A stretch of DNA of 64,000 bases from contig NC_013216.1 in NCBI RefSeq assembly GCF_000024205.1, forward strand, positions 744,001 to 808,000. The letters are read 5' to 3'. Position 1 is the stretch's first letter, and each line of letters opens with the position of its first letter. Positions 4,016 to 7,137 of the stretch are shown piece after piece. The notes under the pieces are model-generated. The model did no database searches. It saw only the letters and a list, made by a program, of their open reading frames with translations, and was not told where the DNA came from. The DNA comes from Desulfofarcimen acetoxidans DSM 771. Its GTDB lineage: Bacteria > Bacillota > Desulfotomaculia > Desulfotomaculales > Desulfofarciminaceae. A program made the translations under genes and the position numbers.

Positions 4016-4816
4016 TTATTTATTCAATCGATTGATAATATCTTCAAATTTGCAATTAGTTATATGTTCAAATACGCGGATAAAATCATTTTCTTCTCCA
4101 ACATTATTAATAATTTGATAAATAGCGCTTGTTCCCCAGATGGAAATTATTTTGTGAATATAAAATTCACTTGATTGATATAACATTTCATATGAATATA
4201 GATTCCAATTTGCTGGATTAGTAATAATGCAGAAATTAAGACTGTTTTTGTATTCATAATTTAAATCTTGAATAGTATTATGAGAAATATATTCAGCTAA
4301 ACCCTCTTTAAACCAAATGGGTAATAATAAATCAACGTTAGAAGCATTAATTAATTGATGAGTATATTCATGAAAAAATGTCTTTAATGGATCGGGGTTC
4401 AAATATGTGATTTGATTTCCATTATGTAAATCAATTATATTTTTTTCAGTTAAAATTACTATTTTATTATCAATTGAGTAGCCAGAAGCCATTAATAATT
4501 TTTTGTCTCTTTTTGCTGTGTTCTTGTTCTTAAGGTATATAGTTATGTTTCTTTCATAACATGTTGGGGTAAAGTATTTTGAAGATGTTTTAATGAAATT
4601 TGGAATATTTTTTTCAATATTTTTTATTAATGATAGCTGTGTATCGCTGGAATAACATACCATAATATTATTAGATACTTTGTACTTCTTATATTGAGGT
4701 TTTTCCGTACCATAATACAGTAAGAAATTAAGACAGAGAAAAATAAATATACATATACCAGTAAAATATAGATTAATTGGTTTTTTCCCAAAGTTATATC
4801 TCAAAAAACTTACCAA
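4016..4816 (-). CDS. Membrane-anchored zincin metallopeptidase-like protein
   Basis: A 266-residue protein with one N-terminal membrane segment (about residues 15-35) and an outside-facing domain. Around residue 155 it has FFHEYTHQL, an HExxH zinc site, followed about 25 residues later by WFKEGLAEY, where the Glu is the likely third zinc ligand. This order is that of the gluzincin 'peptidase MA' families. The substrate is unknown. The gene is very AT-rich compared with the flanking pur and his genes, which points to horizontal origin. It stands alone. Confidence 0.7.
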   Translation of the reverse strand: MVSFLRYNFGKKPINLYFTGICIFIFLCLNFLLYYGTEKPQYKKYKVSNNIMVCYSSDTQLSLIKNIEKNIPNFIKTSSKYFTPTCYERNITIYLKNKNTAKRDKKLLMASGYSIDNKIVILTEKNIIDLHNGNQITYLNPDPLKTFFHEYTHQLINASNVDLLLPIWFKEGLAEYISHNTIQDLNYEYKNSLNFCIITNPANWNLYSYEMLYQSSEFYIHKIISIWGTSAIYQIINNVGEENDFIRVFEHITNCKFEDIINRLNK

Positions 4817-5692: not shown

Positions 5693-6151
5693 ATGTTTAT
5701 GGGAGAAATTATTTTATAACAAAAAATAGATCTATATTACATTATATTTATCGACAATATACACCTATTGCATGATAAAACAAATTATAATAAATTTTTA
5801 CTTGGATGTAATATGTAACATTGAATAAATGTTAAATAATTAAACTAGCGGCTTGTAAAGGTAAGTAAATAGTGGGAGATTAATTTAGATGCTATGTTTG
5901 ATAATGCTGCTATGCTGTCGCAAATAGAAAGGTTTTAAGTATTAATGTTCACGAAAGTTTCGTAAAATCAATTCTTGTATAAGGGATGTTAAACTTAATT
6001 TTTAATAAAAATGTGTTTTTATAATCATTTTATCTGAGACACTTAACGTGATGTTTGTTACGACCAATTCTTTAACAGATATGTTGTTGGTTAAATAGAT
6101 GGTTAAATTGCCAAATTCATATGATTCATATTAAGTTAAGGAGGTGATAGT
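5693..6151. other. AT-rich gap, no gene seen
   Basis: Strongly AT-rich and without a coding frame of note. It ends with a perfect TAAGGAGGTGAT ribosome site (6137-6148) that serves the short gene at 6152. Confidence 0.4.
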
Positions 6152-6262
6152 ATAATTCAATTTCAAAAAATGCCACGTTATCCGCCTAAATGGGCAAAAA
6201 ATAATAGTGGCTCGGTAGGTGAACCGGGAACAACTTGCAACGGCGTACCCACAGTAACCTAG
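6152..6262 (+). CDS. Small peptide, 36 aa, apparent ATA start
   Basis: A textbook ribosome site (TAAGGAGGTGAT, 6137-6148) is followed not by ATG/GTG/TTG but by ATA at 6152, 7 bases after GGAGG. The frame stays open to TAG at 6260-6262. The first ATG (6170) is 25 bases beyond GGAGG, too far for that site. The product is Pro/Gly/Asn/Thr-rich with one Cys (KMPRYPPKWAKNN near its start). No family is recognised; a secreted peptide or bacteriocin-like role is speculative. Confidence 0.35.
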   Translation: MIQFQKMPRYPPKWAKNNSGSVGEPGTTCNGVPTVT

Positions 6263-6573
6263 CCTGAACCACTATTAATATTATTGTATTATATGTAATT
6301 TAAAATTACAATATACTATTCGGTTCAAGGGTGTGTCAATGAAATGACAAAAACCTGATTATGAATTACCGAGGGTAAGGAATGAGATAGAATTTTTATG
6401 CCTTGTTTGCTGATGCTTAATTTCAGTATAGCTGTGCCAAGTGTTACTTGCAGTTAAAAAGATATTAAGTATGCCTGTGATAATGGCGTTTCAGTTAATG
6501 GAACAGAAATTGGTGCTTGACATCCTAAGAAATTTTCTAAAAGTTAATCTTAAAAATTAAGGGGGTTTTGTAA
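6263..6573. other. Gap between the two ATA-start genes
   Basis: No convincing frame. A TTGACA hexamer at 6517-6522 could be a -35 box for the gene at 6604, but the -10 is not clear. An AAGGGGG ribosome site at 6559-6565 closes the gap. Confidence 0.3.
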
Positions 6574-6603
6574 ATACATTCCAGGATAAAATTAATTTCA
6601 TTA

Positions 6604-7137
6604 TTGACAGTAATGGCTTTCTGCTTGAATTTTATGTTTACCGTCTTATCTTTCGCTGCATCAGCAAATGAAGACGTAGCTAAGCAATCCACGGAAAAAT
6701 CTCAGTATGAGAAACTATCAAAAGATATAGAAAACTATCTCAAGCTTGAAGATGGAAAACTTAAAATAGATACCAATAAAATGGAAATAGACGGATATTC
6801 CGAAACGATTATCCAAAGTGTTGAAAAGCAATATCAAGAGTTCAATATTAGTATTAATAGTGATCAAGTAAGTTCTAAGTCAATAGGTTCAGCTGCAGTT
6901 AAAAAAGCTGCTCAATGGTTAAAAAGTAATTGGAGTAAGGTATATGCTAAAATCCCAACATCAGTAAAAGCGTACTTTAGTTTCGATGTAGTATCAAAAT
7001 ATATAGACGCATATGTAAAGTATTCTGATACGATAAACGAATATTTAGCAAATATTGTAAATGCTTGTTTGCCTTCGTCTCTAGAGTGGATGACTCCTGG
7101 TATTGTAGCTACAATAGAACTGTTATTGCCATTTTAA
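6604..7137 (+). CDS. Secreted protein of unknown function
   Basis: From the conventional TTG at 6604 the product is 177 residues and starts inside a signal-peptide core ending FAASA-NED. The ribosome site AAGGGGG (6559-6565) instead points to ATA at 6574, 8 bases on and in frame; from there ten extra residues (HSRIK...) supply the missing basic start of the signal peptide, so 6574 is the better biological start. The mature part is Lys-rich, helical, contains KKAAQWLKSNW and ends in a hydrophobic LLLPF. I do not recognise a characterised family. A 9-bp hairpin follows. Confidence 0.6.
   Translation: MTVMAFCLNFMFTVLSFAASANEDVAKQSTEKSQYEKLSKDIENYLKLEDGKLKIDTNKMEIDGYSETIIQSVEKQYQEFNISINSDQVSSKSIGSAAVKKAAQWLKSNWSKVYAKIPTSVKAYFSFDVVSKYIDAYVKYSDTINEYLANIVNACLPSSLEWMTPGIVATIELLLPF

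Follow-up and report, generated by a model that had tools for sequence, protein, structure and literature searches.

At two neighbouring positions in a 64,000-nucleotide stretch of the Desulfofarcimen acetoxidans DSM 771 genome (the window), a strong Shine-Dalgarno (SD) sequence is followed by an ATA codon. The question raised by this locus is whether both ATA codons are translation starts, and whether the two frames belong together as an earlier note had proposed. Inspection of the sequence bears out both SD and ATA pairs at the spacing claimed for them. On the forward strand, the GGAGG of the first SD is followed after 7 nucleotides by ATA 6152, and the AAGGGGG of the second is followed after 8 nucleotides by ATA 6574. 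Read from ATA, the frames are 36 codons (6152-6262) and 187 codons (6574-7137) in length. An in-frame TAA at 6571 directly precedes the second ATA, and no SD at usable spacing was found for TTG 6604 or ATG 6613.

Taken alone, the SD and ATA pattern is not beyond chance. Among 674 SD-followed codons in frames of at least 30 amino acids lacking a standard start (464 kb of the same genome), 25 are ATA, compared with 30 TAT, 29 TTT, 29 AAA, and 25 ATT. In frames of at least 100 amino acids from the same count, ATA is the commonest codon (10 of 68). A genome-wide preference for ATA was suspected from these two counts and was dropped after a stricter filter over 864 kb (ATA 4 of 78 versus 8 for AAA) and two control genomes. 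The samples of these two other genomes of the order contain similar isolated cases of non-standard starts, so the present genome is not special in this respect. Because several other A/T-rich codons follow an SD at least as often as ATA does in such frames, homologous copies had to decide, and the proof at 6152 comes from those copies and not from the pattern.

A position-exact search of the genome located four other places with the first site, all of which have ATG where the window has ATA. The DNA comparison within the genome extended this to six other full copies of a leader, or seven including the window copy. The features of the window copy are as follows.

6007 to 6130, forward strand: block X, the upstream part of the repeated leader and presumed promoter region (blastn, own genome)
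6138 to 6148, forward strand: SD sequence of the upstream open reading frame (uORF), AAGGAGGTGAT (sequence and six other copies)
6152 to 6262, forward strand: leader uORF with start ATA and stop TAG (translation and alignment with the copies)
6176 to 6187, forward strand: uORF codons Arg-Tyr-Pro-Pro, an R-x-P-P motif (translation)
6199 to 6280, forward strand: leader hairpin core (folds, alignment, pair counts, and match to model R3)
6202 to 6210 with 6269 to 6277, and 6217 to 6220 with 6257 to 6260, forward strand: hairpin stems P1 and P2, respectively, with an apical stem P3 (folds)

Alignment places an ATG exactly at ATA 6152 in each of the other six full copies, whose SD is kept with small changes. 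ATA 6152 is thus a one-base change (G to A) at the true, ancestral start position. The residues upstream of ATG 6170, which the earlier note had assigned to the frame, are retained in all six. The window copy has six private differences in 230 columns, three of them in the core, and one of the six is the start codon. Its SD, Arg-Tyr-Pro-Pro codons, and hairpin are intact. A sequencing or assembly error, with G read as A at both sites, is a highly improbable account. Position 6152 does differ from its copies by G to A, and 6574 has no copy for comparison; however, the genome is a single contig, ATG is found in copies that share the GATTC context, and a leader copy in another genome also has ATA.

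The uORF frame is alike over approximately the first 13 codons among the seven copies. In three of them (L036, L037, and L039) the frame shifts after about codon 13 and runs to a common early stop, so the C-terminal part of the uORF peptide is not conserved. The proposal of a 36-codon peptide gene that works together with its neighbour (gene B) is not supported; the frame is instead a uORF, and the leader RNA to which it belongs differs in frame from copy to copy in its 3’ part.

All seven full copies lie upstream of signal-peptide-type genes on the same strand. The nearest such gene starts at +387 to +1013 from the uORF start, with the exception of L036 (+2712), where an IS-type gene intervenes. 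Beyond the L035 and L036 leaders, the secreted genes are preceded at 54 and 63 nucleotides by two diverged extra copies. Block X has blastn matches in the genome at 2917768-2918226 (-), 2002421-2002865 (+), and 1951095-1951430 (+). At L036 (own genome ~1929632-1931417), block X and the uORF block are about 1.5 kb apart, which is what insertion of an IS directly before the uORF SD would produce. Upstream of the L034 and L039 leaders, and near them, lie a LytTR response regulator and what is probably a sigma-factor-like and anti-sigma-like pair.

The seven copies share a long stem, an inner stem, and an apical stem. A covariance model built from them (R1), which contains the uORF sequence, matched 14 of the 113 genomes of the order (E<=0.1). 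A second model (R2) had no base pairs and was unused. The third (R3) covers the hairpin core only and matched 26 of the 113 genomes, as well as 12 of 398 genomes sampled from the phylum; several of the phylum matches fall inside coding sequence. Non-coding copies outside the order are present in six phylum genomes (G150, G234, G269, G284, G123, and G293). The window copy, being itself part of R3, scores 90.9 bits with the P1/P2/P3 core present.

The hairpin was compared in 19 sequences. Folded individually, each is closed by the same P1 stem. In the named P1/P2/P3 structure 82.1% of cells pair, versus 27-50% for slid versions. The covariation score is 0.108 against 0.060 for shuffled alignments, and none of 500 shuffles was as high, although kinship can inflate this control. 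RNAalifold returned no consensus pairs on the diverse 19-sequence sets, probably because pairing in P2 is displaced by one or two bases between sequences. The folding energy of the whole leader, calculated for two leaders, is not unusual (z of -0.37 and -1.16).

No Rfam 15 family was found over the element in the eight own loci, in 10 loci at E<=1, or in 20 loci at E<=0.1; the window gave four weak matches to miRNA and sRNA models at E<=5, all far below cut-off. The leader pattern had no matches in genome contigs, and plasmid searches with two leaders gave none. No prior description of the leader was found in the open literature searched by title and abstract.

The surroundings were examined for 47 unique non-coding copies from the loci opened after the R3 searches. 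Left out of this set were seven copies in coding sequence (L167, L177, L170, and L174 in subtilase genes; L171, L173, and L175 as judged by frames), the duplicate L217, and 13 further places listed by R3 in the order search; reverse-strand matches on the same places were ignored. A uORF was defined as an SD of at least six pairs with an ATG or TTG frame leading to or into the hairpin. A downstream gene was defined as an SD-preceded frame of at least 40 amino acids with a strongly hydrophobic N-terminus, starting within 250 nucleotides. Such a uORF is present in 40 of the 47 copies (ATG in 35, TTG in 5), and a gene start of the secreted or membrane type in 30. The opposite strand gave 0 and 2 of 47, respectively, shifted positions 15 and 18 of 174, and 3000 random positions 6.5% and 2.7%. 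In a sample of the own genome, 105 of 610 SD-preceded frames of at least 100 amino acids have such an N-terminus; the p value for 30 of 47 against this background (~1.5e-12) is overstated because the copies are related. Loci found with R1 are biased, since that model contained uORF sequence, and the 28 loci found by R3 only are therefore the fairer set; by hand count, these include 22 uORFs and 21 downstream genes. The window copy itself is counted in neither class. Its SD is strong and its start is ATA, and the peptidase remnant described below lies between the hairpin and gene B, with no signal-type gene start within 250 nucleotides.

A hairpin in seven full copies within one genome may also be read as a mobile palindromic element lacking a regulatory role, and four R3 matches in other genomes are in-frame parts of subtilase genes. 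We regard this reading as unlikely. The association with a uORF and a secreted-protein gene is strand-specific and far above the controls, and the SD and uORF are conserved though they lie outside the hairpin core modelled in R3. In the four subtilase genes (L167 and L177 in G169, L170 in G123, and L174 in G293), the hairpin core is located just before the GTSMATP catalytic serine motif, and two solved subtilases lack approximately 24 residues at this position. Sequence comparison thus shows the leader family, with its uORF, its hairpin, and its placement before secreted-protein genes.

The uORFs sort into two types. Type A, with Arg-x-Pro-Pro/Leu, accounts for 18 of the 40 uORFs, 13 of which are outside the own genome. 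The motif is RYPP in the window and RDPP, RAPP, or REPP elsewhere in the family. Among the 13 type A loci of other genomes (seven of them R3-only: L207, L179, L168, L169, L172, L180, and L181), third-base differences occur in the Arg and Pro codons while their first and second bases are mostly kept, which points to selection on the peptide. The last motif codon ends 6-19 nucleotides (median 9) before P1, so a paused ribosome would sit at the foot of the hairpin. Type B uORFs are mostly three to nine codons long, do not contain R-x-P-P, and stop just before or in the hairpin.

Several further observations concern the other leaders. Type A hairpins from several genera (L192, L165, L179, L168, L183, L189, and others) share a stretch resembling TCTATTTAACCATTTTTTT...GTTTTCAACTGCCAAAG after P1, and the element may thus extend further 3’. 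The leader stretches of L203 (G076) and L217 (G104), which belong to one family and different genera, are identical, as would follow from recent transfer or contamination. In G085, a type B leader is preceded, about 45 nucleotides upstream, by a match resembling a c-di-GMP-I riboswitch (L151:1369-1456 (+); 31.9 bits against a gathering cut-off of 35).

Downstream of the window leader are three further features.

6367 to 6472, forward strand: block Z, the decayed 5’ end of a gene for a secreted papain-like (C39_2/C70) peptidase, interrupted by stop codons (L034 and G053 comparison)
6559 to 6565, forward strand: SD sequence AAGGGGG of gene B (sequence)
6574 to 7137, forward strand: gene B, an orphan secreted protein with a probable ATA start, a signal peptide, and then about 150 amino acids (translation)

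G053 has an intact peptidase gene (L053:1047-1592 (-)), and its 5’ end is matched by the block Z equivalent of L034. The own genome contains no homologue of the peptidase at E<=0.001. In G071, a leader precedes an open peptidase frame in the same orientation. Judging from these matches, the gene that the window leader originally preceded is the remnant of a secreted cysteine peptidase. Gene B is the next gene after the leader and starts 294 nucleotides beyond the hairpin. On the opposite strand of the window, at 4016-4816 (-), a secreted-looking protein has a HEYTH zinc-peptidase-like motif and weak family matches only.

The signal peptide of gene B is complete only when read from ATA 6574. 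The earlier note had held that the residues before TTG 6604 supply the missing part of this signal peptide, and translation agrees as far as the point is testable. Homologues of gene B were not found in genome contigs, viral contigs, plasmids, the 113 genomes, or the PDB, and no Pfam or NCBIfam family scored above cut-off. Weak repeated matches to the C-terminal part came from unrelated frames, and assignment as a bacteriocin of the aureocin A53 family was rejected (13.3 of 27 bits, below cut-off). The structure model, made from one sequence, is poor (mean pLDDT 64.3).

Elsewhere in the genome, ATN starts are found in conserved genes, namely a Mn catalase (ATA), an FprA-like flavoprotein (ATT), and infC (ATT). 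For the Mn catalase, the solved homologues 1jku and 1o9i align from residue 1. These precedents make initiation at ATA 6574 plausible. The conserved-looking genes of the genome with ATA, ATT, or ATC starts are at L089:5171 (-), L085:4887 (-), L101:7168 (+), L134:15892 (-), and L219; they comprise these three together with what are probably a DEAD-type helicase (ATA) and a SEC-C-type gene (ATC). Use of ATA 6574 as the start of gene B appears somewhat better than an even chance, most likely at a reduced rate. A silent gene B is rather improbable, and a start at the TTG or ATG further in is slightly less probable still.

Two accounts would treat both ATA codons alike. The first holds that they are real, selected weak starts that keep expression low, as in infC, ccpN, and citZ of Staphylococcus aureus. 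The strong SDs at good spacing, the ATN starts of Mn catalase, FprA-like flavoprotein, and infC, and the leader of L214 (G025), a second copy with ATA where its congener L205 has ATG, fit this account. However, ATA 6152 is not conserved among the copies, gene B has no homologues to show conservation at 6574, and isolated cases of a similar kind occur in the two other genomes sampled. We consider it improbable as a description of both sites. The second, a little less improbable and still doubtful, is that both are start-codon losses in a decaying island and that neither frame is now translated. The single ATG to ATA change at 6152, the peptidase remnant broken by stops, and the transposase-type and remnant frames nearby are in keeping with such decay; 187 open codons and a full signal peptide in gene B, and the intact hairpin and SD of the leader, are not. 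The reading preferred here, which we hold to be probable, treats the two sites separately. Positions 6137-6280 are one copy of a conserved and probably regulatory leader in which a single base change has put ATA in place of ATG at the uORF start; this would weaken or disable that copy, and gene B would most likely start at ATA 6574. Initiation at ATA is approximately 10-30% of that at AUG in S. aureus reporters (PMC13009471), and start strength in Listeria is described as ATG>ATA>ATT (PMC13068326). ATA functions at a reduced level in both, so the window uORF is better called weakened than certainly silent; with weak or absent uORF translation, the copy would be partly or wholly disabled.

How the leader might regulate can be proposed from its layout of a strong SD, a short uORF, and the P1/P2/P3 hairpin before secreted-protein genes. 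In type A, a ribosome on the uORF would be slowed at Arg-x-Pro-Pro and would hold the 5’ strand of P1. In type B, it would hold the same strand while terminating at the hairpin foot. Expression of the downstream gene would be gated by the held strand, and simple SD masking is a less likely route for this than mRNA stability or some other step that depends on the ribosome. A masking switch was not supported in predictions for 30 loci, as blocking the 5’ strand hardly changed accessibility of the downstream SD (mean unpaired 0.40 versus 0.36) and neither freed nor hid it usefully. General competition with a terminator was not supported either, as terminator-like hairpins that draw their 5’ arm from the element, and so compete with it, were seen in only 5 of 40 loci (L193, L216, L204, L208, and L178). 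These two results are the reason for leaning toward mRNA stabilisation or another ribosome-dependent gate, which may act in either direction. Further points against the preferred reading are the type B uORFs without R-x-P-P, the window copy without a signal-type gene within 250 nucleotides, the unremarkable folding energy of the two whole leaders, and the lack of an RNAalifold consensus.

Tentatively, the copies may belong to one widespread and so far unnamed type of regulatory leader. Ribosomes that arrest or terminate at the foot of the hairpin, on a minimal cytosolic uORF (R-D/A/E/Y-P-P or a few codons), would gate the expression of many secreted proteins, and start strength (ATG, TTG, or ATA) would serve as a tuning knob. 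If so, these would be natural start-codon variants of one uORF. The leader is the larger finding, and the ATA starts are a modest oddity of a kind already known; an odd ATA pair has led to a testable class of exoprotein leaders for which no Rfam model was found.

Rickettsia palindromic elements are short palindromes found in frame in coding genes. The hairpin resembles them in its in-frame copies and differs in that most examined copies are leaders with an SD and uORF before secreted-protein genes. The erm and trp-type leaders are leader-peptide attenuators and stabilisers with a uORF and hairpin before the gene. The present leader shares that arrangement, whereas no SD-masking switch or general terminator competition was found here. 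The SD followed by ATA at a presumably reduced initiation rate resembles the AUA and AUU starts of S. aureus and Listeria (infC, ccpN, citZ, cvfC1, and rsbW; PMC13009471; PMC13068326). Those starts were measured, whereas here the change at 6152 is confined to one of the seven full copies and gene B at 6574 lacks relatives.

The closest likeness in the peptide is to the RAPP-type arrest peptides (ApdA, ApdP, and the RQH family), which also consist of a short frame upstream of an export-connected gene. Ribosome arrest at RAPP/RGPP is documented (PMC12992588; PMC10987492; PMC10951233), and RDPP is described as partly active in ApdA/ApdP mutants (PMC12992588). Many of the leader uORFs carry Arg-x-Pro-Pro, and by analogy they may arrest ribosomes as well. 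They differ in x, which here is mostly Asp, else Ala, Glu, or Tyr, and in the leader peptide, which has no obvious localisation signal; the products are short, and read by eye show no obvious hydrophobic segment, unlike the N-terminal signal or membrane feature of the RAPP type. RAPP/RGPP uORFs are reported as absent in many Gram-positives including Bacillota (PMC12992588), and arrest at the present uORFs, if true, would place such control in that phylum. The genes downstream of the leader encode secreted proteins and not sec/yidC; should the R-x-P-P uORFs indeed stall ribosomes, control by arrest peptides would reach beyond the secretion machinery to the cargo that is secreted.
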